In this document: positions 51,786-64,000 of the stretch, one piece after another
Layout: the number at the start of each line of letters is the position of its first letter
Position numbering within the stretch: position 1 is the first letter of the stretch
DNA from: Actinomycetes bacterium
GTDB taxonomy: Bacteria > Actinomycetota > Acidimicrobiia > Acidimicrobiales > Acidimicrobiaceae
Assembly (NCBI GenBank): GCA_021805205.1
Contig: JAJZFV010000015.1
Coordinates: forward strand, 107,190 to 171,189
Direction: 5' to 3'
DNA: 64,000 nucleotides
Notes under the pieces: generated by a model
What the model saw: the letters and a program-made list of their open reading frames with translations, nothing else
Told to the model about the DNA's origin: nothing
Databases searched by the model: none
Program-made: the position numbers and the translations under genes

Positions 51786-52880
51786 ATGAAGCTAGCATGG
51801 AAGACGCCAATAATTGCAAAAGCCACTGCCGCAGTAGTCCTTCCCTTCACCACCGTTGTGGCCGCTCACACTGCTGGAACAAATATAACTTCAACTACTA
51901 ATCCAGCTCAGAGCATAAATATAAACAGCAGCCCCATCGTCCTTCCGACGCCAATCGCACCTACGTCCACCTCAATAGCGACAACACAGACCTCCAATAC
52001 GTCAACCTCATCTTTGCCACAAGCAGTGGTAAATTCGTCAACCACTTCAGAGTTAGCGACTACCTCATCCTCTCCAGTTGCGCCAAAGAGTAGCCCAACC
52101 ACCGCCAGATCTAACCCCAGCTTCATAGCAGGAAGTAGGACACCTTCTGCAAGTCCAGCGCCTCCCGCACCGTCCCAAACAGTTGCGCCGCAGAGTCCAA
52201 CTACATCAGCTACGCCAGCGACATCGCTACCGACTACGACCGCTTTAGCACCAACCACTACATCTCCCGCTCCTCAAATCGGCACCATAGGATATTCAGG
52301 ATTTGCCCAAGGTGCACCAGCGGCCATGGGGCAAGCATACGGCAGTTGGATCCCGGACTTTAATGGCTACGGATCTATTGAAAGAGTCAACGATCCAGTT
52401 CTAGGCGACTCTCTCAACCTAACTCCAGCCACAGCGACGAGTCCTTCTGCCACTCACTCAGCGCTGGTAACGACTACTAATAATTATGGAGACTTTAACG
52501 CCACCTTTACTTACAGAACGGTGGCACAGCTTCGAACTGGATCAGCCCCAAATCCGTGGGAGGTAGGGTGGGTGCTCTTCCATTACAGCAACAACACCCA
52601 CTTCTACTATTTTCTAGCAAAGCCCACTGGATGGGAATTGGGAAAAGAAGACCCCTCCTATCCCGGGAACCAAAGGTTTATGGTCACCGGATCCACACCA
52701 TTCCCAGTCGGAAATACTTACAAGATAAATGTCGTAATGACCGGAGCCACAATTTCAGTGAGCGTCAACGGGACACCGATCGTTACATATACCGACACCC
52801 AATCGCCATATACCAGTGGTTCTCTTGCCCTATACGACGAGGACTCCTCAGTTGACTACGCCCCAATCGTCGTCAACTAA
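51786..52880 (+). CDS. Secreted Ser/Thr/Pro-rich protein with jelly-roll domain
   Basis: A 364-residue exported protein. The N-terminus (MKLAWKTPIIAKATAAVVLPFTTVVAAHTA) is a signal peptide with a probable AHA-type cleavage site. About 130 residues of Ser/Thr/Pro-rich linker follow. Residues 175-364 form a beta-rich domain of the laminin-G/3-keto-disaccharide-hydrolase kind, with WEVGWVLFHYSNNTHFYYFLAKPTGWELGKEDPSYPGNQRFM. It probably binds or acts on a surface polysaccharide. It faces the polysaccharide gene block from the opposite strand. Confidence 0.72.
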   Translation: MKLAWKTPIIAKATAAVVLPFTTVVAAHTAGTNITSTTNPAQSININSSPIVLPTPIAPTSTSIATTQTSNTSTSSLPQAVVNSSTTSELATTSSSPVAPKSSPTTARSNPSFIAGSRTPSASPAPPAPSQTVAPQSPTTSATPATSLPTTTALAPTTTSPAPQIGTIGYSGFAQGAPAAMGQAYGSWIPDFNGYGSIERVNDPVLGDSLNLTPATATSPSATHSALVTTTNNYGDFNATFTYRTVAQLRTGSAPNPWEVGWVLFHYSNNTHFYYFLAKPTGWELGKEDPSYPGNQRFMVTGSTPFPVGNTYKINVVMTGATISVSVNGTPIVTYTDTQSPYTSGSLALYDEDSSVDYAPIVVN

Positions 52881-53191
52881 TCCATAGCTCTTGCTTTATC
52901 GATTCGCTTTGGTATTAAATGATTTGATCTCTCAAAATAACATTGGCATTATCGCTTCGTTCAAGGAGTAAAAACAGGTGTCAATTTGAGAACCTAGCTT
53001 TTGTTCGGGGACTTCGTTTGAGCTCCATGTCGACCATCCACTAAATTCAGAAAATTCCACTGTTCCTAAGTACTCTTCAGCATGTAGCGCAAACCGAACG
53101 CTTGAAGAAGCTACGACTTAGCTCAATTGCGGATCTCTAAGCAGTACCATCAACGCATTCGGAGTACTCGTTAGATGGAGATAGCAATTCC
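52881..53191. other. Convergent gene-free interval
   Basis: 311 bases between two convergent genes. I see no open frame with a start site, no strong terminator hairpin and no repeat. Confidence 0.4.
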
Positions 53192-55246
53192 TCAAAACGT
53201 TGCGATCACAGATACTCGCCCGGCAGGTAGCTTTACCCAAAAGCCGCCATTTGGATCAGGAGTAGCACTGACAGCAATTGGAGCGGCGCTCGCAGTAATC
53301 GACTTAGGATCCTGCGAAAGAAGCGCATAGACCGTTGAACGGGAGTAGTAATCAAAAAAGATCTTGTTCGACGATAACGTGCGCGCATTCCCCAAATTGG
53401 CATCTATGGAGAGAAGGCCTGGAGATAGCGAGGGGCCTTTAGACCAAACAAGGCTGTGAGTTCCTTGCGGTACCACGGCTATCCCATCGGAAGTGGGCCA
53501 ATTAGATCCGTCAACTTTGAGTTGTCCGTATGAAGAGGGAGCGGTCACCTTGATTGGAAAGTTTGTTATTACTCCAGTGGGCGTTTCAGAAACGCTCCCG
53601 GCCACTGCATAGTTCAAATTTGATAGATCATAGGTTCCGATGGTACCTAACGCGTAGAAGTCGACCTTTGAATTCACCCTCCCAGCCTCCATGGCAGTAA
53701 GATCGAGCTCTCCCATAGTTGGATATGCGGTGGGCTTGGTTGAGGTGCCTCTATCAATAACGTTTACATCAATTGAATAGTTGGCCGGCGAAACTAAGTG
53801 GCTGACTTTGCTATTCACGGCCATATAGCGATTTGGCCCCCTGGACCAGACCGTGTATGGATCTTCGACTTGCAGCTGAGCTCCAGCATTATTTGCCACT
53901 TGTGCCAAAAGCGACATATTTGAGCCGATGTTCATCGCCTCAGTGGGATCCAAGGTGTCATCGATGATCGTCAACTCCTTGTCCATACTTGCAGCATTTG
54001 GGAGGGTATTTACCTTAGATAGCAACTCGGAGTCGATTTGAGCAACTAACTTCTCCCTGAAATTAATAAAGCCAGTTCGGTCAAGGAAAGGATCTCCACC
54101 GAATTGTGCAAGTGCAGTCGGAGAGAAAGGCGTCGCTGTCTTTGGGTGGGCAAGAGACTCAAAGTACATTTCGGCGAAGTTTACCCCATCCCAAGAGTAA
54201 GAAGAAAGAACCTTGGAGAACTGACTCCATGCAATATTGAAACAAGCAGGATCCTCAAGTGCAATAAGCTCTCGCCAATCTCCGATCGCAGCCTGACCCG
54301 ACTCGTTTATTTCTCTACAATTTGGGTACTGCTGCCACGTATAGGCATTCACAAAGGGGGGTTCGAGCCAAGCGTAAACCAGTATTCCGCGACTATGGAG
54401 AGCATCTATCAAAGATTGGTATGGATAATTTGAACTCGGATTCGAAAATCCAAAGTTCCACGCAGCAAGTTCAACAGATCGAACTCCGACCAGATCAGAG
54501 GCGATTTGTGCAAAATTGAACTTTAGATTAGCTGGAAGAACTCCTGGATCGAGGTAGACCGTCGTCTGAAGTGATTGGGGACCGCGCGTAGCTCCAAGGA
54601 ACTCGCCCACCATACGCCCGAGCGAAGGAAGGATTTCGTATCCATTACGACCGTTAGCAAATGGATCAAACGAGGTGGCAAGTAGTTTGCCCGAGCTATA
54701 AGATTTGCTAATTGCAATCGACATTCTGCGTCCACCGCTATCGGCCGTTGCAATCGAAACAGTTAAATCGCTACCGGTAAATACAGTTAGCTCCCCTTGA
54801 AAGTTGACGGGTACCGAAAGATTTGGATCCGACACCGAAGTCACGCCTATCGCAGTCCTCGATAGCGCCAATTTGAATGATCTGTCCATTGCAGGCGAGA
54901 GAAGTACTATTCGCCCCCCCTTTGCAGTCCAATTCTCTACTTCGGTGATTTGCGAGCTATCTAAACGTGAATCGTTCAGAACTACTAAGTTCCGATACGC
55001 CCCTAAATCAGAGGTCGATCCCATGTACCCCACATATCCCGCAGATCTTAACAGATTCAGGAATCTCGGACCCTCAGATGCGGAACCAAAGACTAAGACT
55101 GGATTAGATGCCGGCCACGCTGAGATCGGGGTTGGGGCACTTGCGGTCACCCGCGGCGAGGTTCCGCAAGAGGCTAATACCGATGTAATGAGGGCAACCA
55201 CCACTAATGGCAAGTAGACCCTTCGGAAGCGCATTAACAAACTCAT
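53192..55246 (-). CDS. Lipoprotein with PgaB-hydrolase-like barrel domain
   Basis: A 684-residue lipoprotein from the ATG at 55246; the frame opens at 55348 inside the upstream gene, and 55234 is another option. The lipobox is SVLASC (Cys27). Residues 40-120 form a Rossmann/GATase-like segment (NPVLVFGSASEGPRFLNLLRSAGY, WTAKGGRIVLLSP). At about 230-420 there is a TIM-barrel-like stretch: TVYLDPG, FNFAQIASDLVGVRSVELAAWNFG, SLIDALHSRGILVYAWLEPPFV, SYSWDGVNFAEMYFES. This order resembles the C-terminal hydrolase domain of PgaB. The C-terminal 200 residues are probably beta-rich. The gene follows the glycosyltransferase. Catalytic residues were not proven. Confidence 0.65.
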   Translation of the reverse strand: MSLLMRFRRVYLPLVVVALITSVLASCGTSPRVTASAPTPISAWPASNPVLVFGSASEGPRFLNLLRSAGYVGYMGSTSDLGAYRNLVVLNDSRLDSSQITEVENWTAKGGRIVLLSPAMDRSFKLALSRTAIGVTSVSDPNLSVPVNFQGELTVFTGSDLTVSIATADSGGRRMSIAISKSYSSGKLLATSFDPFANGRNGYEILPSLGRMVGEFLGATRGPQSLQTTVYLDPGVLPANLKFNFAQIASDLVGVRSVELAAWNFGFSNPSSNYPYQSLIDALHSRGILVYAWLEPPFVNAYTWQQYPNCREINESGQAAIGDWRELIALEDPACFNIAWSQFSKVLSSYSWDGVNFAEMYFESLAHPKTATPFSPTALAQFGGDPFLDRTGFINFREKLVAQIDSELLSKVNTLPNAASMDKELTIIDDTLDPTEAMNIGSNMSLLAQVANNAGAQLQVEDPYTVWSRGPNRYMAVNSKVSHLVSPANYSIDVNVIDRGTSTKPTAYPTMGELDLTAMEAGRVNSKVDFYALGTIGTYDLSNLNYAVAGSVSETPTGVITNFPIKVTAPSSYGQLKVDGSNWPTSDGIAVVPQGTHSLVWSKGPSLSPGLLSIDANLGNARTLSSNKIFFDYYSRSTVYALLSQDPKSITASAAPIAVSATPDPNGGFWVKLPAGRVSVIATF

Positions 55247-55271
55247 TCGCGACGATAACTGTAACTGTACT

Positions 55272-56792
55272 CTAACGAGATTGCTCACCTTGCTCCACAT
55301 CAGACCAGAGAAATCCAAGGCCACGTGCACCGCTATCTCGCCGGACAAGCCGGTTCAAAAGCTCTGGTGGAAGCTCTTGATTCAAAAGATCAATATCGTC
55401 TAGCGTAAACTCGCCACGCCTATTGTGGGCATTTTCTACTTCAACTACTCGAGGCTCAGAGCCAAATGACATGACTGTTCTTCTCTCCTGACGCTTCACC
55501 AGTCTCCCCTTTGATGCTTCGTACGGGTCGAGTATTGCAGCTTGCTTTGTAAATCGAGAAGTCTTAGACCAGCCCTTCTTCCTAAAAACAATACGAAAAA
55601 TAGCCTTCCATCCTGAGATGAACCATATGTAGGAGTAGAAAACGTAAAGGTGTGCGTAGTAGAGACCACGGATCACCGAAATTTCAGGTGTTGCCTTCAG
55701 ATAAAGATAGGCGTAGACCGGAGCGAATCCAAAAGAGAAGACGTAGACGAGTATTAAAGGTAGACCATAGTTTGACGTGACTGCGTGGAAATATCTCATC
55801 GGCTCAGCAATGAGGATCAAGATGTTGGCAAAAAGTACTGCGAAGATCGAAAGTGAAAGAAGAAGAACCGTTAATGGACCCGTCAGATTGTATAGTAGGT
55901 CGATCGTCGCTCCGGGAGATAACTTAGCCTTGATGATACGGGGGAAGTGATACCAGCACTGAAGATGCCCCTGGAACCACCGCGTTCTCTGGCGGATTAA
56001 TTTTGAAAAAGAGGTAACTCCCTGCTGCGACACGAAGGTATCTTGACAGAAGGCATTCAACCATCCGCGTTCGATCAACTTCAGACCAAGATCTAAATCT
56101 TCAGTCAGAAGGTTAGACCAAGGAGCTTCTCCTAGGTCTGCCAGTCCACTTAGCCTATTGAACTGCCCATTTCCACCTAATCCAGAGGATCCTATTTGGT
56201 GCCTTGCTCTTTGGAATATCTCAGTAAAGACAAGAAACTCAAAGTCCTGCATCCGCGCCAAGATCGACTTTGCCGAGTTATACATTCGTACACCAATTTG
56301 AACCGCGGCGACCTTTGGATCATCGAAGTAAGGTGCGACCTTGCTAAGTGCGTCACTTTGCAATCTGCCGTCGGCGTCGACGATTACGATCACAACCTTG
56401 TCCGGATCGCTCGCAATTATTTCAGGGGAAGAGGTGATGGCTCGATAAGCGGCATTAAGTGCTTCACCTTTACCCTTCCTTGCCTCCGGAAGTTCTCGCC
56501 TAAGAAGAGAGACTCTTCGGTCAAAGTACCGCGAGACGACTTCAAAGGTATCGTCGTCGGAAGCATCATCGATAACAACAACGCTCTTATTAGAGTATGG
56601 AATCTCTAAGAGTCGGTCGAGGCTCTTACCTATAACTTTGCCTTCATTTAGACATGGCAAAAGGAAGATGAAGTGAATGTCTTCATTGGAACGTTCGACC
56701 TCAGGTAGTGATTTTTTAGTACGTGAAAGTATTACGTACCCGATACCGTAGACCAAAAAGGCAAATATCAAAATTGGAGTTACATAACGCAC
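55272..56792 (-). CDS. Processive family-2 glycosyltransferase (polysaccharide synthase)
   Basis: A 506-residue membrane enzyme of the cellulose-synthase/PgaC/NodC type. One span lies at 1-24, then the catalytic domain: Asp75/76 (VVVIDDASDD), DAD at 139-141, TEDLD at 230-234 and the QxxRW box QRTRW at 268-272. Three to four C-terminal spans follow (about 295-415). A 90-residue hydrophilic tail has no recognisable PilZ domain. It should polymerise a sugar nucleotide and pass the chain across the membrane. UDP-GlcNAc is the likeliest donor by analogy with PgaC, but this is not shown. Confidence 0.87.
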   Translation of the reverse strand: MRYVTPILIFAFLVYGIGYVILSRTKKSLPEVERSNEDIHFIFLLPCLNEGKVIGKSLDRLLEIPYSNKSVVVIDDASDDDTFEVVSRYFDRRVSLLRRELPEARKGKGEALNAAYRAITSSPEIIASDPDKVVIVIVDADGRLQSDALSKVAPYFDDPKVAAVQIGVRMYNSAKSILARMQDFEFLVFTEIFQRARHQIGSSGLGGNGQFNRLSGLADLGEAPWSNLLTEDLDLGLKLIERGWLNAFCQDTFVSQQGVTSFSKLIRQRTRWFQGHLQCWYHFPRIIKAKLSPGATIDLLYNLTGPLTVLLLSLSIFAVLFANILILIAEPMRYFHAVTSNYGLPLILVYVFSFGFAPVYAYLYLKATPEISVIRGLYYAHLYVFYSYIWFISGWKAIFRIVFRKKGWSKTSRFTKQAAILDPYEASKGRLVKRQERRTVMSFGSEPRVVEVENAHNRRGEFTLDDIDLLNQELPPELLNRLVRRDSGARGLGFLWSDVEQGEQSR

Positions 56793-56893
56793 TTCAGCAC
56801 CCTTTTACTGATTTCACTATGTATTTCGACAGCAAATTGCGCCACCTAAATCCTGTAGTAATTCACTCGGACACTTTCGCCACATTATTAAAA

Positions 56894-56936
56894 AAGTGGG
56901 GCGATCAAGTCTTAGCAAGACCTCATCGCCCCACTT
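56894..56936 (-). terminator. Intrinsic terminator after the DUF2334 gene
   Basis: A 12-bp perfect stem, AAGTGGGGCGAT with ATCGCCCCACTT, contains an inner GTCTT/AAGAC stem. On the minus strand it is followed by TTTTTTAATAA. It lies just after the DUF2334 gene and about 100 bases before the glycosyltransferase start, so the two are separate or attenuated transcripts. Confidence 0.88.
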
Positions 56937-56948
56937 AGTTTTGTTGGT

Positions 56949-58778
56949 TTAGAAAGTAGTTGTACTCTGTTGACCCAACAGTGTCGTTGGCGATACAAAG
57001 TTGTAACCGAGAGCCTTGATTCCGCTTACGATTTGTGTCAGAGGGGTAGTTCCATAGCTTGGATCGTAGAAGAAGCTGGCAAAACCGTCGCGAACAACCA
57101 GATTTGCCTTCGCCTCAGCGATAATATCAGCGGGTAGGCGAGGTGGGTGATTGTTGAGCATGACTGGCTCGTAATCGCCTAAATTCTCTGGAATTACGGT
57201 CGTTCCATAAAGGTCATGGACCTCATACGGGAAGAACTGACCAACGAGTTCGTTGTAATTCGGAGCCGCAGGGTTGCTGAGCTGACCGCCAAAGTAAAGA
57301 CGACGATCATAGTTGGCCGTTCCGGTGTTACTTCCGAAGTACTTAGCGAAAACCTGGTAGTCGACTGACGAGGCTGCGTAGTGTGGCGTAACCCAGAACT
57401 TCGGACGGGGAAGATCGACCGACTGAATCTCAGAGAGCCCAGCCGATACCCGGCTAGATGCCCATGAAGCGCTGTCATTAGGAACTGGACCCTCAAAGAT
57501 CACCCAATCGGTATTTTGACATGGAGAAACAAAGTTGTAGGGATAGCTGTTCGTCGTCGAACATTGACCACGGTAGAACTCGAAGTCATCTGCACTTGTT
57601 CCATCATAGGGATTGGCAATATTTGAGTACTGGTGGGTATAACCCTCCATCGCCAAGTTGCCACCTAACCGAATCATCTCCTTTAGCGTCTTTACAAAGG
57701 TAGCCGCCTGAGGTGAGTTGAGCGGGATATTTGTAGGCGTACCATTACTGTAGGTTCCCAGAGGATCAAGCCAGTGAGGAATCAAGTTGATGCTAAAGGG
57801 TACGTGCTGAGAGTGAAGGTATCTAGCAACATCCAGTAGTTGTGTCGTAGAGTCGTTCACATTGACGTCTTCGAGACGAACAAGGGCACGGTGACTTGAG
57901 GCGTTAGGCATCAATGTAGCGTCAATTAGATCTGCCAAAACTAGATAACGATCATTCTCGGCGATATAAGAGAGGGGGTTTTCTCCTACGAAGGTGATGT
58001 TGCTCGATTGAATGGCGTATGGAAATGAGCTATTACCTCCAGCACGAGCTTGGCTCTGACAAGCTACTGCCGTGCCAGTCGAAGAGGTGCAGTTAGCCAT
58101 CGCAAGGATGTTCACCCTCGATGGATTGGTAATGTTGGCACCAATTACCGCCCCAGAGAGAACATTTCGATTGATGGTTTCACCCTTGTAAGAGACAGAG
58201 GTGATGTTGTCGTTATCGAAGTAACTCGTAGATGGATCCCAACCGTACTTATTTTCAAAGGCGGTCGTAGCGGCCGCCGAGGAGTTATCTAGCTCCCATG
58301 CGTTCTCGCCAAGCCAGAGAACAGGAGTCGAAGATGTAGTTACATCCGTAATCATTGCTTGAGGAAGCGGCTCGTTGTAGGTTGAGCCGATGTATATCAC
58401 TAAGTTAAACTTCGAGGCTTCCCCCGCCACATAGTCAGTGGCCGGCTGGGCGACAACCATTCCACCGTGGCTGGCCAAGTTTCCGGCCAGGATGGCATAC
58501 ATTTGCCCTAGATAACCCCAAGGACCAGTGACGTCGTAAAGGACTAAGGTTTTGTTCGGCTCGGATGTAGTGCCCCAAACAGTAGACCCTGGCGCAAGAG
58601 ATTGCAGTGACTTTGCGATCTGCTGGGGATCTGATGAACTTGTTGTGGCCGAGGCTGCCCTAGGCAAGGACGTCAATGCCGTCAGAGTCGCAGTAGATGC
58701 GAGAATTCCAGCCGTCGCAACCCTAACTCCGGTTCCAGCTCCTAGGAGCCTTCCGAATCCCTTCCGTGAAATTCGCAT
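56949..58778 (-). CDS. Secreted DUF2334 (polysaccharide-deacetylase-like) protein
   Basis: A 609-residue exported protein. The N-terminus (MRISRKGFGRLLGAGTGVRVATAGILA) has an arginine-rich start and hydrophobic core ending near AASA. Residues 75-175 form a Rossmann/GATase-like segment. The DUF2334 region (about 290-590) shows ALVRLEDVNVND, VPFSINLIPHW, MEGYTHQYSN, WVTPHYAAS and LNNHPPRLP, the acidic and His positions shared with carbohydrate esterases. It should act outside the membrane, possibly deacetylating the product of the neighbouring synthase. It ends at a strong terminator. Confidence 0.8.
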   Translation of the reverse strand: MRISRKGFGRLLGAGTGVRVATAGILASTATLTALTSLPRAASATTSSSDPQQIAKSLQSLAPGSTVWGTTSEPNKTLVLYDVTGPWGYLGQMYAILAGNLASHGGMVVAQPATDYVAGEASKFNLVIYIGSTYNEPLPQAMITDVTTSSTPVLWLGENAWELDNSSAAATTAFENKYGWDPSTSYFDNDNITSVSYKGETINRNVLSGAVIGANITNPSRVNILAMANCTSSTGTAVACQSQARAGGNSSFPYAIQSSNITFVGENPLSYIAENDRYLVLADLIDATLMPNASSHRALVRLEDVNVNDSTTQLLDVARYLHSQHVPFSINLIPHWLDPLGTYSNGTPTNIPLNSPQAATFVKTLKEMIRLGGNLAMEGYTHQYSNIANPYDGTSADDFEFYRGQCSTTNSYPYNFVSPCQNTDWVIFEGPVPNDSASWASSRVSAGLSEIQSVDLPRPKFWVTPHYAASSVDYQVFAKYFGSNTGTANYDRRLYFGGQLSNPAAPNYNELVGQFFPYEVHDLYGTTVIPENLGDYEPVMLNNHPPRLPADIIAEAKANLVVRDGFASFFYDPSYGTTPLTQIVSGIKALGYNFVSPTTLLGQQSTTTF

Positions 58779-58888
58779 TTTAACTCCAAATTACTTGCGA
58801 TCCAATATGGTTGAATATTACTATTAGTGGTTTGTAAATATCTTATTATGAGGTAAAACTTCATAAAATCTTAGAAAAACAACGATTT
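58779..58888. other. AT-rich spacer with weak hairpin
   Basis: 110 very AT-rich bases between the DUF2334 gene and the small LAFTG protein gene. AGGTAAAA near 58851 can pair with TTTTACCT near 58891, with a loop of about 30 bases. It could serve as a weak terminator for the small gene. Promoter elements for the DUF2334 gene should also lie here. Confidence 0.3.
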
Positions 58889-59095
58889 TTACCTGTTGAA
58901 AACCTTTAGCACAGCACCGAGGACTACTAAACCTGCCACGAGTAGCGAATATCCCCCAAGGGCAAAACCGGTAAAGGCTAGCGCGCTGTGAGAAACTCCT
59001 GTAGTTTGACTTGCTGCAATAGTAGAGATAACGCTGCCTAGAGTTGTTCCAGTAACGCTTCCTAATGTTGTCAATGTAGTGCTTACGCCCGACAT
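58889..59095 (-). CDS. Small protein with LAFTG sorting signal
   Basis: A 68-residue ORF from the ATG at 59095; the frame opens further up at 59200, but that start is less convincing. Residues 1-36 are Ser/Thr/Gly-rich. The C-terminus is LAFTG (39-43), then a hydrophobic stretch LLVAGLVVLGAVL and the charged end KVFNR. This is the form of a sorting signal for class E sortases, which prefer LAxTG, and such a sortase gene lies 3.6 kb upstream. No clear N-terminal signal peptide is visible, which is odd for a sortase substrate. Confidence 0.6.
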   Translation of the reverse strand: MSGVSTTLTTLGSVTGTTLGSVISTIAASQTTGVSHSALAFTGFALGGYSLLVAGLVVLGAVLKVFNR

Positions 59096-59272
59096 CTCAT
59101 TACCATCCTCTCCTACTCTCGACACTAGGCGTCGGAGCAGATGACTCTTAGAAGAATCTAATATGTCCTTAAGTTTATCACTAAAAATGACGATAACCAC
59201 TTTTTGCGGTTTTATTTTGAATTCTGTATTACTTTCGAACCTTCAAACCACTCATAGAGACAAATTCGATAC

Positions 59273-60895
59273 CTATTGACGGTACCAGTTGCGCAAAGCA
59301 GCTATTAGTTGGGGTGAAGAGGCGTACTCCTCAGCAAAGTACCACCAAAAAGGACCAGATGAGACACTGAATGGAAGAGAAAGTAAGAGTCCCATATAGG
59401 TAGTTACCGTTGACGCTTTTGAAGAATCACTTACCGAAGGCGATCCCCACCACCACGATCCAGTGACACCACTACCTCCGTATCCCAGCTCACCGATGTA
59501 AATGCTCTGATTAGGGAAGTAAACCGTATGCAGTGTGGTCATTGCTCTGTAGAAGGAAGCTCCCAATGGGGCCTCCTGTGGATACATAGAAATACCCACC
59601 GACGTAAGCTTCGAAATCTCGGTTGGAGTCAAATTCGTATTGACCCAATTAAAGATGGAGTGCGATGCGTCGTCTTCACCCAATTGCCAATATAACGTCA
59701 AATAAAGGGGGGTCGAAGAGAGACTTGCTGCTTCATCGATTGCATATGCCACCTTGGCTCCAACCTGTGGCCCCAACCAGTTTCCGTTAACTTCGTTACC
59801 AACTTCCCAAACATCAACATGTTGCAAGGTACTCAAAATTTGATCGATCCGACTTTGATAACGCGCATATGAATACGATGCCATGTATTGTGAGTCCATC
59901 AATTCGATCATTACCGAGATGGACATCGAATGTGCGAGATCGATAGCACTTTGATATTGACTAAGTGGAACGCCTGGATCGATCACAATTCGGACCATCG
60001 CTCTCGATGGAAACGTCGACCTTACCGCATTAAGAGTTGAGGAAAGGTTATCAAGCGTATCTATGGTCACAGAGTATCGAAATTGGCTATCTTCAACACC
60101 TCCAATTCGATTCGTTGCAATTGAATTGGCAACATCCAACGAGAGATCGACGGCCTGATTTAGTTGTTGCTGATTTACAGAGGAGCCAAGCGTCGGATCA
60201 ATATCGCTTTGCAGTTGAGTAAATGACTCGCTCTGCGACTGCGAAAGAGGATATGAATTTGCCTTTGCCATCGCAGCAATTTGCACAAGCTGAGATCTAA
60301 TACACAATGCATCGAGATTGAAACTACCACCCCCTGGAAGATCGCATATCAAATTCGAATATCCACGATCACTGGGCCATGCAAAAGATATTGCCGCTGG
60401 AGAGATCGAAAGATCGACTGCAACAGTGGTGGGACCTTGGTAGAAAGGGCCCAGATCCACTACTTGCAAGGTTGATGGATTCAAGGTTGCATCGTCGTAA
60501 CCGTTATTTCCCGTATTATTCGACTCTAAGGAACGAAATTGTCTAAAGGAATAAAGACCTCCCCCACTTTGGTACATCGCAAGGTTGGCAGTACCGGCCC
60601 CAGATGGTGGGAGCAAAGCGATTTGGGGCAAAGTGGAGATCGTCGAAGGGCTCGTCGGAGCGACCCGCGAAGACGATTGAGACGATGTTGGAGCCTCAAC
60701 CGCTTGTGGACTATTTGTCGTTGCCGATGTCGAGGTTGGGTTCGACGGCTCAGTTGCCTTCAATGTCGATAGAGGACCTGGATTCGAAAACTTAGGCGGG
60801 CCACCTCCGCATGATGTTAGAACAAAGGCTGCCGCAAGAAGCAAAGCAAAAAAGGTTGAAACCTTTCGCTGAATTGACTCCTTGTTCCTAGGCAA
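59273..60895 (-). CDS. Lipoprotein with clan GH-A-like glycosidase domain
   Basis: A 540-residue lipoprotein. The lipobox is FVLTSC (Cys29), followed by about 65 residues of Ser/Thr/Pro linker. The catalytic module spans about 270-540. VWEVGNEVNG holds the Asn367-Glu368 pair expected for the acid/base of clan GH-A barrels, and IYIGELGYGG holds Glu469 as the likely nucleophile. The exact GH family is not clear. It may trim or cut the locally made polysaccharide. Next upstream is the wecB-like gene. Confidence 0.7.
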   Translation of the reverse strand: MPRNKESIQRKVSTFFALLLAAAFVLTSCGGGPPKFSNPGPLSTLKATEPSNPTSTSATTNSPQAVEAPTSSQSSSRVAPTSPSTISTLPQIALLPPSGAGTANLAMYQSGGGLYSFRQFRSLESNNTGNNGYDDATLNPSTLQVVDLGPFYQGPTTVAVDLSISPAAISFAWPSDRGYSNLICDLPGGGSFNLDALCIRSQLVQIAAMAKANSYPLSQSQSESFTQLQSDIDPTLGSSVNQQQLNQAVDLSLDVANSIATNRIGGVEDSQFRYSVTIDTLDNLSSTLNAVRSTFPSRAMVRIVIDPGVPLSQYQSAIDLAHSMSISVMIELMDSQYMASYSYARYQSRIDQILSTLQHVDVWEVGNEVNGNWLGPQVGAKVAYAIDEAASLSSTPLYLTLYWQLGEDDASHSIFNWVNTNLTPTEISKLTSVGISMYPQEAPLGASFYRAMTTLHTVYFPNQSIYIGELGYGGSGVTGSWWWGSPSVSDSSKASTVTTYMGLLLSLPFSVSSGPFWWYFAEEYASSPQLIAALRNWYRQ

Positions 60896-60941
60896 TTGCT
60901 CTCAACTCCGACCTTCTATTGACTGAAACTTCGATGGTAAC

Positions 60942-62096
60942 TTATTGGTCACCATAGATAAAGTCGGCTGGTCGATCGCCCGCACCAAAAAGCCACTTTA
61001 TTGCATCGACAGAGCGAGGAGCAGCCTTACCGTCGCCGAATGGATTCGACCGATGCGCTATCGAACTGTAGTAGTCGCTATCATCAAGCAGTCTCGCGAT
61101 CTCTCGAGCGACATTATGCGGATCCGTTCCCACCAGCTTTGCGACTCCGGCGGATATGGCTTCTGGCCTCTCCGTTGTGTCCCTAGCGACTAGCACGGGC
61201 TTTCCTATTGAAGGAGCCTCTTCTTGAATGCCACCACTATCGGTAAGGATAAGTGTCGCACCATTCATCAACCTACAAAAGTCGACGTAAGGTGCTGGCG
61301 AGATAATCTTTACGTTGCGAGCTCCATCTAGGCCACTCCTCATTGCACTTTGAACCAATTCATTCGGGTGCAACGGAAGAACTAGATCGTAATAAGGATA
61401 TCTCTTGGCTATTTCTCCCAGCGCCTTTGATACCTGAGCCATCGGTTCACCCCATGACTCCCTTCGATGCATTGTTACGAGGATGTATCGTCTGCCAGAA
61501 GCAAGTATCGTCGGTACTTCCTCCGTTTCCATCTCATAGTCGCCATTGACAACGTCGAGCAGAGCATCGATAACCGTATTTCCAGTTGTCACGATACTTT
61601 CAACAGGCGTTGCCTCATTTATCAGGTTTTGGGCTGCCAGAGCAGTTGGAGCCAGGTGCAGATCAGCAAGTTGTGAGGTGATTCGACGATTTATCTCTTC
61701 GGGGAAAGGTGAATACGGATTCGAAGTCCTCAAACCCGCCTCCAAGTGGACAACCTTAGTCTTTGCATAAAACGACGCAAGTGCCAACACAAAAGTAGTC
61801 GTGGTATCTCCTTGTACAACTACAACGTCGGGGGAGATCTTTTCGATAGCCGTAGTCGCAAGTTCCATAAGTTTAGAGGTGAGCTCACCGAGCGAGTTTG
61901 TATTACGAATTAGCTCCAATTCGAGGGTTGGCTCGATCGAAAATACGTCTAGCACCTGTCGCAGGATCGAAGTGTGTTGTCCGGTTGTGACCACACTGAC
62001 GTCAAAGAGTGAATCTCGTTGAAGCGACTTTACCATGGGCGCCATCTTGATCGCTTCAGGACGCGTACCGAACCCTACCAATGTCCGAATAGTCAA
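60942..62096 (-). CDS. wecB: UDP-N-acetylglucosamine 2-epimerase (non-hydrolysing)
   Basis: Interconverts UDP-GlcNAc and UDP-ManNAc. It has 384 residues, GT-B fold. Signatures are GTRPEAIKMAPMVK near the N-terminus, VVQGDTTTTFVLALASFYAKTKVVHLEAGLRT and PFPEEINRRITSQLADLHLAPT. The C-terminal half has VTMHRRESWG, LILTDSGGIQEEAPSIGKPVLVARDTTERPEA and GTDP. In this block it suggests that ManNAc or a derivative enters the polymer or a linkage unit. The gene lies 34 bases after the small lipoprotein gene. Confidence 0.95.
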   Translation of the reverse strand: MTIRTLVGFGTRPEAIKMAPMVKSLQRDSLFDVSVVTTGQHTSILRQVLDVFSIEPTLELELIRNTNSLGELTSKLMELATTAIEKISPDVVVVQGDTTTTFVLALASFYAKTKVVHLEAGLRTSNPYSPFPEEINRRITSQLADLHLAPTALAAQNLINEATPVESIVTTGNTVIDALLDVVNGDYEMETEEVPTILASGRRYILVTMHRRESWGEPMAQVSKALGEIAKRYPYYDLVLPLHPNELVQSAMRSGLDGARNVKIISPAPYVDFCRLMNGATLILTDSGGIQEEAPSIGKPVLVARDTTERPEAISAGVAKLVGTDPHNVAREIARLLDDSDYYSSIAHRSNPFGDGKAAPRSVDAIKWLFGAGDRPADFIYGDQ

Positions 62097-62130
62097 TGAA
62101 CTCCCCTAAACGTACTGTAAATTCCAATTT

Positions 62131-62661
62131 TCAACATCCACTCGGAACGTTATCGACGCCGAAGAGTATCGACTTAACATTCCCAGTAGAGTCCAGAATG
62201 AATGCAGCATATGGATCATGTCCTAGAAATTTAGAAAATTTTTCGACTGTGCACAGGGCACCTTTTTTAGTTGCAACCACGACCGTCGATGGTGGCATAA
62301 AATCCCTTGCTAGTGCCGAAGCCAACTTCAAGGGAATCGAGGGTGTGAGAGCAAAGGTAAAACCGAGAACAACACCATCTTGAATATTCAATGCCGAGTA
62401 GGTATCTCGCCCATCTGAAAGTCTGGGCCAGTATCCATTCGGGTTATTGGGATCCAAGGTATGGGATAGGTTCCAACTTTGAATTGTGGCGCCAAAATTC
62501 GAAAGCTTAACATTGGGTAGGGTGGTCGACGTGGTGACCGCTGTAGAAGAGACAGAGGAGGCAACGGTCGAGCTCGACGAAAAGCCACAAGCGGCGAGAA
62601 CGGCAGCCGAAATCCAGAGAAATAAAAGTTGGGATGCAGAACTCTTGCGAAAACACTCCAT
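62131..62661 (-). CDS. Hypothetical lipoprotein
   Basis: A 176-residue protein of unknown family. The signal is LLFLWISAAVLAAC with the lipobox VLAAC (Cys25), followed by a Ser/Thr-rich linker to about residue 50. The small C-terminal domain contains WPRLSDGRDTYSALNI and FLGHDPYAAFILD with two more cysteines (CTVEKF and the last residue), which could pair. Its ATG overlaps the sortase stop by one base, so the two are co-transcribed. Confidence 0.7.
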   Translation of the reverse strand: MECFRKSSASQLLFLWISAAVLAACGFSSSSTVASSVSSTAVTTSTTLPNVKLSNFGATIQSWNLSHTLDPNNPNGYWPRLSDGRDTYSALNIQDGVVLGFTFALTPSIPLKLASALARDFMPPSTVVVATKKGALCTVEKFSKFLGHDPYAAFILDSTGNVKSILFGVDNVPSGC

Positions 62662-63551
62662 CAGAAACTACCTGGCAAAAATCGCCCGCCGAAGAAGAAG
62701 GCCACTAACCACAATAAGTACGAAATCGACAAAAGGGTAGAGAAGAAGAAGTAGCGACGCCTCTTTGTAAAAAGCGAAATTGCAATCATCGACAACAACA
62801 CGGCAGGAACCAACGCAAGTAGTGCTCCAACGATACTACGGCCACTTATAGATGACGAGGTGGCTACGGTTGTGCGTCTCGAGGTAACTACAGCAGACTT
62901 CGAATATACGCTACCACTTAACTTCGCAGTAACCACCAAGCGAGTAGTGGCTGAAAATCGAGGATTGCAAGTAGTTAGAGTCAGCGTTGGTTCGGCCGTT
63001 GTAGCCAAAACACTGGTATTCGACGGCGATACAACAGTCGAACCGGTAACTAAGTAAGTGAATTGTCCGGCATGCGTGGTCAAGATCACCTTATCGCCCG
63101 GAGAGAGTTTATCTAAGTTGTAAAAAGGAGCGCCATAGGTCGTTCGATGACCCGCGATTGATACATTGCCGCTTTGCCCAGGTAACGCCGTTCCAAGATA
63201 ATGGCCCGGCCCCTCGATTAAATCAGCCTCGGAGGTTCCTTGAACGAAGGCCATGCTTAACCCGATCTTCGGTATTGCAATTGAGCCGATCACAGAACCT
63301 TCGGATATGGCCCCATAAGTGCCGGACGCTACTTGACGTTCAAAAGTCGAAAGAAGAGACCTTTGGGTAATCGAGGTGAGAAGGTTGGTTCCCCAAAGCA
63401 TAAAAACGATAAAAAGCACCACTACTGTTGATAAGTAGAGCAGATAACTTGAAAGTAGCGCTACGCCGTCACTCTTTCGGCGTCGTATCTTAACCATGTC
63501 GCGCGCCGTAATTTCAAGTTGACTCACTTGATCTTTAACCATTTCCCACAA
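62661..63551 (-). CDS. Class E sortase
   Basis: Cysteine transpeptidase that joins LAxTG proteins to the cell wall. It has 296 residues in the frame listed (TTG at 63551; the ATG at 63542 is also possible). It is anchored by an N-terminal span (about 34-58). The catalytic triad is His135 (SIAGHRTTYGAPF), Cys195 (LTLTTCNPRFS) and Arg204 (ATTRLVV). ISEGSVIGSIAIPKIGL and EGPGHYLGTALPGQSGNVSIAGHR are family signatures. A C-terminal pair of spans (about 230-295) is typical of class E enzymes. The LAFTG protein at 58889-59095 is the obvious local substrate. Confidence 0.92.
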   Translation of the reverse strand: MWEMVKDQVSQLEITARDMVKIRRRKSDGVALLSSYLLYLSTVVVLFIVFMLWGTNLLTSITQRSLLSTFERQVASGTYGAISEGSVIGSIAIPKIGLSMAFVQGTSEADLIEGPGHYLGTALPGQSGNVSIAGHRTTYGAPFYNLDKLSPGDKVILTTHAGQFTYLVTGSTVVSPSNTSVLATTAEPTLTLTTCNPRFSATTRLVVTAKLSGSVYSKSAVVTSRRTTVATSSSISGRSIVGALLALVPAVLLSMIAISLFTKRRRYFFFSTLLSISYLLWLVAFFFGGRFLPGSF

Positions 63552-63729: not shown

Positions 63730-64000
63730 TTGAGATATGTGTTAGCTGCTATAGGCGCAGTCCTTTTCGCGACCACCGTGGCAAGCGTACTTCGGACACT
63801 GGTTATTCCCGGTGGCTTTGTTACCAGAACATCGCGCTCGATCGATGCAGTTGTAATCCGGGTGTATCACTTCTTTACAAAGCGTAATAATCGGTACGTC
63901 CGGAAGAATTCGATTCTCTCCTCGCAACCAGCAGCAAACTTATTCCTCACCCTCACGACTTGGATGCTTACATTCCTTACTGCCACAACTCTGCTTCTAG
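63730..64000 (+). CDS. Membrane protein, ion-channel-like, cut by right edge
   Basis: An open frame that runs off the window without a stop, 90 codons seen. The start is the TTG at 63730, with AAGGGAG nine bases upstream. The protein begins MRYVLAAIGAVLFATTVASVLRTLVIPGG, one span with the SVLRTLVIP motif. A basic loop (VYHFFTKRNNRYVRKN) and a second span (ANLFLTLTTWMLTFLTATTLL) follow. This opening resembles actinobacterial two-pore potassium-channel-like membrane proteins, but the pore is beyond the edge. Confidence 0.6.
   Translation, partial: MRYVLAAIGAVLFATTVASVLRTLVIPGGFVTRTSRSIDAVVIRVYHFFTKRNNRYVRKNSILSSQPAANLFLTLTTWMLTFLTATTLLL

Follow-up and report, generated by a model that had tools for sequence, protein, structure and literature searches.

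A conserved exopolysaccharide-type gene block with a sortase and an LAFTG mini-protein in an Acidithrix-type bacterium

The window analysed here is a stretch of 64,000 nucleotides from an Acidithrix-type bacterium (contig JAJZFV010000015.1 of assembly GCA_021805205.1, positions 107,190 to 171,189); it runs to the contig end, and the source assembly comprises 2.6 Mb at 89% completeness. At window positions 51,786 to 63,551 lie nine genes that a preliminary description, made from the letters and open reading frames (ORFs), had read as a candidate exopolysaccharide and wall-anchoring system. By kinship, Acidithrix ferrooxidans PY-F3 belongs to the genus of the source bacterium. All the genes named there are present with open frames:

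62661..63551, minus strand: class E-type sortase, 296 amino acids (aa), TTG start; PF04203 at 117.7 bits, with H135, C195 and R204; three hydrophobic segments.
62131..62661, minus strand: small lipoprotein, 176 aa, lipobox LAAC; no family over cut-off.
60942..62096, minus strand: WecB, non-hydrolysing UDP-N-acetylglucosamine (UDP-GlcNAc) 2-epimerase, 384 aa; TIGR00236 (Epimerase_2) at 412.1 bits.
59273..60895, minus strand: GH-A-like lipoprotein (LTSC), 540 aa; N367-E368 and E469 motifs; possible glycosidase.
58889..59095, minus strand: LAFTG mini-protein, 68 aa; Ser/Thr-rich 38-aa head, LAFTG, single hydrophobic helix, short basic tail.
56949..58778, minus strand: DUF2334 protein, 609 aa, likely secreted; Rossmann/GATase-like half and CE4-fold half; predicted de-N-acetylase.
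55272..56792, minus strand: membrane GT2 synthase, 506 aa; DADG, TED and QRTRW (QxxRW) motifs; PF13641 at 111 bits.
53192..55234, minus strand: barrel lipoprotein (LASC) of 680 aa; a Rossmann-like domain, a (beta/alpha)8 barrel like that of PgaB, and beta domains at the C terminus.
51786..52880, plus strand: jelly-roll protein, 364 aa, likely secreted; Ser/Thr/Pro linker and LamG/jelly-roll domain; PF06439 at 32.5 bits.

The eight minus-strand genes follow one another in this order from the sortase (63551) to the barrel lipoprotein (53192), whose start is the M at 55234. The jelly-roll gene is convergent with them across a 311-base gap, not divergent as had been described. The gaps within the eight-gene block are -1, 34, 46, 177, 110, 156 and 34 bases, and with such tight spacing on one strand it looks like a single transcription unit; a promoter and terminator scan gave fewer sites than shuffled sequences and was uninformative. 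Lipobox-type N-termini are found on three block proteins. No family over its curated cut-off was obtained for the barrel lipoprotein (DUF4350 only, below cut-off), the GH-A-like lipoprotein, the mini-protein or the small lipoprotein. The N367-E368 and E469 motifs are presumably of GH-A type, and the jelly-roll protein is a possible glycan-binding or glycan-cleaving partner. Beyond the block, a gene divergent from the sortase occupies 63730-63999 on the plus strand and runs off the window end.

Four other genomes of the genus preserve the gene order, at ~45-93% identity per gene, and for this reason the block is not a chance arrangement. The full order including the convergent jelly-roll gene is found at L031 and L033, and also at L032, where the contig ends within the jelly-roll gene. 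At L034 (genome G009) the GH-A gene is missing, and the 1.2 kb in its place (L034:6769-8000) holds no ORF >76 aa. Of the 11 other genus genomes examined, 4 carry a near full-length orthologue of the synthase (68-90% identity); within the genus, DUF2334 is found in exactly those four relatives, and orthologues of the small lipoprotein were seen in them only. The remaining seven genomes, several of them incomplete, gave no DUF2334 match and either no synthase match or a weak one (≤59 bits). The preliminary description had proposed a search for the same gene set elsewhere and had taken a lack of co-conservation as telling against a system; that outcome did not appear, and the sortase is included in the conserved set, being present also in clusters outside the genus (L050 and L052). 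A conserved protein of 363-381 aa adjoins the sortase in three relatives (L031:1416-2507, L033:17649-18773, L034:2714-3859); the one checked has no Pfam family.

The best family for the synthase is NF053846, "XrtP-associated glycosyltransferase" (312 bits, under its cut-off of 520). It scores far below the cut-offs of PgaC_IcaA (TIGR03937; 83.2 versus 422.3 bits), CelA (27.8 versus 699.1) and NodC (28.9 versus 550), so that the tie to cellulose named earlier as a finding that would overturn the proposal is not seen. None of the 20 NCBIfam models reported for this protein is for hyaluronan synthase, and no dedicated hyaluronan test was made. DADG and QxxRW are present in all 11 aligned synthases and TED in 10, and a synthase match (E<=1e-40) was obtained in 15 of 296 genomes of the class. 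A tree of 40 rows was constructed without L032, L175, L177, L179 and the truncated synthase of L096. The 17 rows of the single-membrane set form one branch in it (99/99), and the six sortase-bearing rows cluster with L170 and L171 (86/94). The E. coli PgaC reference sits on a very long branch, and long-branch joins are possible.

Across 19 loci with a strong synthase match, WecB is present in 15, the mini-protein in 12, a sortase or exosortase in 12, DUF2334 in 8 and the barrel in 7. This count excludes five weak synthase loci (L177-L181, 141-156 bits; WecB-like match in 5/5, mini-protein in 0/5), L045 and L047-L049, which equal L031-L034, and the contig-edge piece L046, which holds only barrel and jelly-roll. 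At L170, WecB, DUF2334, synthase and mini-protein lie together, and the contig ends 1.3 kb beyond, leaving room for a missed sorting enzyme.

The barrel lipoprotein has PgaB as the top fold match of its predicted structure, in agreement with the earlier comparison with the PgaB hydrolase domain; D349, E355, D425, D458 and D489 are invariant. The DUF2334 protein scores 150.7 bits with PF10096 (cut-off 26), and its predicted CE4 fold, together with a PelA-type fold match, agrees with its description as deacetylase-like. PDB sequence searches with both proteins and with their profiles gave no useful relative.

A barrel-profile scan gave 319 relatives in named genomes, and the best 80 were retained. 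In 21 of these 80 loci, DUF2334 and barrel are fused as one protein, mostly of ~1,320 aa (L061, L063, L068-L070, L073, L079, L081, L083, L084, L087, L089, L094, L096, L098, L102, L103, L109, L111, L112 and L118). The hosts are Ignavibacteria, Bacteroidetes, Desulfobacteraceae, Elusimicrobia and Acidobacteria. A GT2 lies downstream of the fusion in 20 of the 21 loci, L073 stopping at a contig edge, and WecB is present in the available stretch of 10. Since gene fusion is classic evidence of joint function, the two separate window proteins are taken to act together, in line with the earlier suggestion that PgaB-like activities are split here over two proteins. The loci with fusion and GT2 in several diderm phyla are probably a PgaB-like polymer system, for which no name was found in the literature searched; their synthases (19 rows) form a tree branch of their own (100/100).

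Two further groups were observed. A family of 352-677 aa proteins lies nearby in six of the loci compared (L061, L070, L084, L104, L111, L118); it gives the impression of an outer-membrane barrel, and the one member checked has no Pfam family. Barrel lipoproteins without DUF2334 or a clear synthase in the available stretch occur at L051, L054-L060 and many Bryobacterales loci, mostly in Acidobacteria.

These data bear on whether the block is a poly-N-acetylglucosamine (PNAG; Ica/Pga-type) system of a single-membrane cell, in which the GT2 would make poly-beta-1,6-GlcNAc, the DUF2334 protein would deacetylate it and the barrel would trim it, with WecB and the sortase as unrelated neighbours. 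The PgaB fold match favours this, as do the alignment of the synthase profile to E. coli PgaC (99.5% probability, 24% identity) and the two fused-locus synthases tested (L068 and L061), which score best with PgaC_IcaA (168 bits). However, the window synthase belongs nearer to another family, WecB recurs in most of the strong-synthase loci and neither protein has PgaB sequence similarity, and we regard this reading as improbable. Of the PNAG-like pathway proposed earlier, the PgaB-type barrel fold, the CE4 fold and the split activities are supported, while PNAG proper is not.

Relatives of six of the genes (jelly-roll, WecB, sortase, DUF2334, synthase and barrel) lie within ~11 kb at L050 (Thermoflexaceae, Chloroflexota) and at L052. 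The L050 sortase (76 bits in Pfam) is closer to class C (55 bits) than to class E (42 bits), and a GH26-family protein is placed there like the GH-A lipoprotein, a likeness of position. The window sortase itself exceeds the PF04203 cut-off (26.6) and carries the H, C and R residues; class E is the best among the sortase classes, but its model NF033747 is just missed (152.5 versus 160 bits).

The mini-protein is likewise present, with 68 aa and not 103: the longer ORF was rejected as over-extended, 68 aa being the length common to four orthologous ORFs and to the public gene call P0200 on the same contig. Nine matches >40 bits were obtained among 60 relatives, all adjoining the synthase. They fall in 9 of 10 synthase-bearing genomes and in 0 of 50 others (Fisher 6.8e-10, uncorrected for relatedness); seven of the nine helped build the profile and score so by construction, the absence elsewhere being the informative part. 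Many of the other genomes contain weaker matches (≤33.5 bits), for the most part in frames >100 aa, which is the pattern expected of generic sorting signals. In 1.26 Mb of other loci, scanned as a control, no small ORF of this type was present, and the one match lies in a 1,319-aa protein. Among the public matches listed, from at least 7,993 scored candidates, are at least 24 proteins, called "hypothetical protein" where named; three of these 24, of 97-109 aa, resemble secreted proteins of an ordinary kind. Elsewhere in the source genome, a weak sorting-signal match (17.6 bits; G000:C40:368820-368894) lies in a 687-aa frame, with a like match in G008, and its product is a possible further sortase substrate.

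No exosortase was found among the nine window proteins. At five other loci (L035, L036, L037, L039 and L173) a member of the exosortase/archaeosortase family (TIGR04178, 24.5-35.3 bits, cut-off 23) lies directly beside the synthase or overlaps with it, with the XrtP, XrtR and XrtS models below cut-off. All five contain, within 4 kb, a 54-80-aa ORF in which LAFTG or LAATG is combined with a hydrophobic helix and a basic tail. Three of them (L035:13619-17996, L036:2556-9370, L037:3055-9697) combine the exosortase-like protein, mini-protein and synthase with a secreted-looking protein bearing a C-terminal membrane anchor; a PVV-CTERM match in L036 and L037 is below cut-off, and WecB is near in L035 and L036.

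WecB is well above its cut-off (210.15) and is the only copy found in the incomplete assembly, in which one nucleotide-sugar dehydrogenase over cut-off looks to be of the UDP-glucose type. This combination suggests that UDP-N-acetylmannosamine (UDP-ManNAc) itself is the donor or co-donor, and the clustered sole 2-epimerase favours ManNAc over pure GlcNAc. Wall polymers commonly contain ManNAc, and the product might accordingly be a secondary cell-wall polymer or protein-decorating glycan rather than a biofilm matrix, with WecB feeding ManNAc and the synthase glycosylating the mini-protein or an exosortase substrate. The secreted-looking proteins with membrane anchors in exosortase-type loci would fit, as would the Ser/Thr-rich head of the window mini-protein and the Met-Tyr start of seven aligned mini-proteins from outside the genus (those of L170 and L173 being starts chosen inside a longer ORF). 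Since GT2 synthases of the QxxRW type are usually processive, and PgaB- and PelA-type folds accompany exopolysaccharide systems, we think this unlikely.

Taken together, the block is a real, conserved system and, by the tests made, is not PNAG, Pel or cellulose synthesis; its description as exopolysaccharide-type is supported. It appears to work like PgaB/PgaC with a sorted mini-protein added, as a variant of synthase-dependent exopolysaccharide systems. Judging from the sequences, it probably makes a de-N-acetylated amino-sugar polymer that is held at the cell wall by the sortase and mini-protein. In the mechanism proposed from family membership, WecB would convert UDP-GlcNAc to UDP-ManNAc, and the membrane synthase would polymerise N-acetylhexosamine (likely ManNAc, alone or with GlcNAc) and thread the chain out. 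Outside the membrane, the DUF2334 protein would remove some acetyl groups, giving free, cationic amines as in PNAG and Pel, and the tethered barrel and GH-A-type lipoproteins would bind, guide or trim the chain in the manner of PgaB in the diderm periplasm. The sortase would cut LAFTG between T and G and join the mini-protein to an amine of wall or polymer, fixing the synthase output to the surface.

Several observations weigh against this reading. The block is found in 5 of 12 genus genomes, and DUF2334 (E<=1e-60) in 3 of 396 genomes of the phylum, its own counted; the two other phylum loci (L200, and L201 with 3.5 kb only) are without synthase or WecB. DUF2334 and barrel are absent from most of the 19 strong-synthase loci so that the synthase module does not depend on them. 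The barrel is often alone, which also counts against its joint action with DUF2334, 51 of 79 aligned barrel rows lying outside the fused and split groups: two of these (L072 and L104) are truncated at a contig edge and have a GT2 downstream, and the others gave no DUF2334 and no glycosyltransferase beyond a 17-bit match in L060. Both proteins are unlike E. coli PgaB in sequence (hhalign probability 0.3 for the barrel, 0.1 for DUF2334). In the D + HxxxH metal triad of DUF2334, D304 and H382 are kept and the first H is replaced by E378, where other-phylum relatives have a metal-binding-type H (E in 23 and H in 18 of 41 aligned rows), and its activity or metal may therefore differ. The mini-protein has no evident signal peptide, and none was found at L038, L171, L174, L175 and L176 (the contigs of the last two end just upstream of the synthase), or at L050 and L052, where a sortase is present. 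Two further sortases lie in the assembly, so that of the block need not be dedicated.

The two further sortases, and the lack of a mini-protein match beside the sortases of L050 and L052, would also fit a separate surface-protein operon of sortase, mini-protein and small lipoprotein, transcribed with the polymer genes by chance, with the mini-protein as a generic small wall protein. Class E sortases act on many substrates, and neither the small lipoprotein nor a sortase was found in exosortase-type loci. Against this, the mini-protein accompanies the synthase outside the genus, also where the neighbour is an exosortase-like enzyme, and the sortase lies within the same cluster in L050 and L052; such an operon is therefore rather unlikely.

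Within the proposed wall-held polymer system, amide bonds to amines are sortase chemistry, and it is conceivable by analogy, although we give it little credence, that a sorting transpeptidase, which would be the class E sortase in the window and an exosortase in relatives, attaches the LAFT end of the mini-protein to a polymer amine exposed by DUF2334. The mini-protein would then anchor the synthase product covalently or even serve as its primer, and the result would be a new class of wall-anchored glycan whose synthesis does without lipid-linked repeat units. A precedent is offered by type IX secretion, where, in the accessible part of the source, PorU, implicated as the sortase, amide-links the protein C terminus to a linking sugar of anionic lipopolysaccharide (A-LPS), via seryl or glycyl on C-2 after the putative deacetylase VimE removes the acetyl group (PMC7468200). 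That system is diderm and uses other enzymes, and such a bond is only a hypothesis for the window system.

The block links synthase-dependent exopolysaccharides with protein sorting by sortases and exosortases, which are usually studied apart. To our knowledge, the nucleophile of exosortases and the way in which single-membrane bacteria hold synthase-made polymers on their surface are both open questions; a sorted mini-protein that follows one synthase clade, with a sortase or exosortase-like neighbour, provides a small genetic handle on both.

No described counterpart that pairs such polymer genes with a sortase and a sorted mini-protein was found in the literature searched, in line with the preliminary description, which recognised no described system joined to a sortase and an epimerase; nor was anything related found on LAFTG, on an XrtP exosortase or an actinobacterial exosortase with glycosyltransferase and sortase. 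In the part available of a synthase-operon survey, the words "sortase" and "epimerase" occur 0 times (PMC7112194), and an iron-snow metatranscriptome covering Acidithrix reports pgaBC-type transcripts that its excerpt does not tie to Acidithrix (PMC8305228). The block resembles PNAG systems (PgaABCD / IcaADBC) in its membrane GT2 with QxxRW and in combining a deacetylase with a PgaB-type barrel. In PgaB and the diderm loci, however, these two are one protein, and the window has a synthase from another GT2 family, a deacetylase and barrel that show no sequence relationship to PgaB, an added WecB, sortase and mini-protein, and no PgaA or PgaD recognised among its nine proteins. Compared with Pel (PelA; the Gram-positive pelDEADAFG as given in the accessible part of PMC7112168), no PelD, E, F or G was found in a Pfam scan of the nine proteins, and a 2-epimerase stands in place of a 4-epimerase and a GT2 in place of PelF. 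The PEP-CTERM/EpsH exosortase system likewise ties protein sorting genetically to exopolysaccharide genes, but, as far as the excerpted source describes it, belongs to outer-membrane bacteria, has as a rule several substrates per genome and includes no sortase (PMC1569441). The XrtP/XrtR/XrtS-like exosortase loci (NF053846, NF012139, NF012138, NF033767) share the synthase clade and an LAFTG-type mini-protein with the window, and WecB is near in two of five; they have an exosortase-like enzyme, with no DUF2334 or barrel found in the five loci, whereas the window has a sortase.

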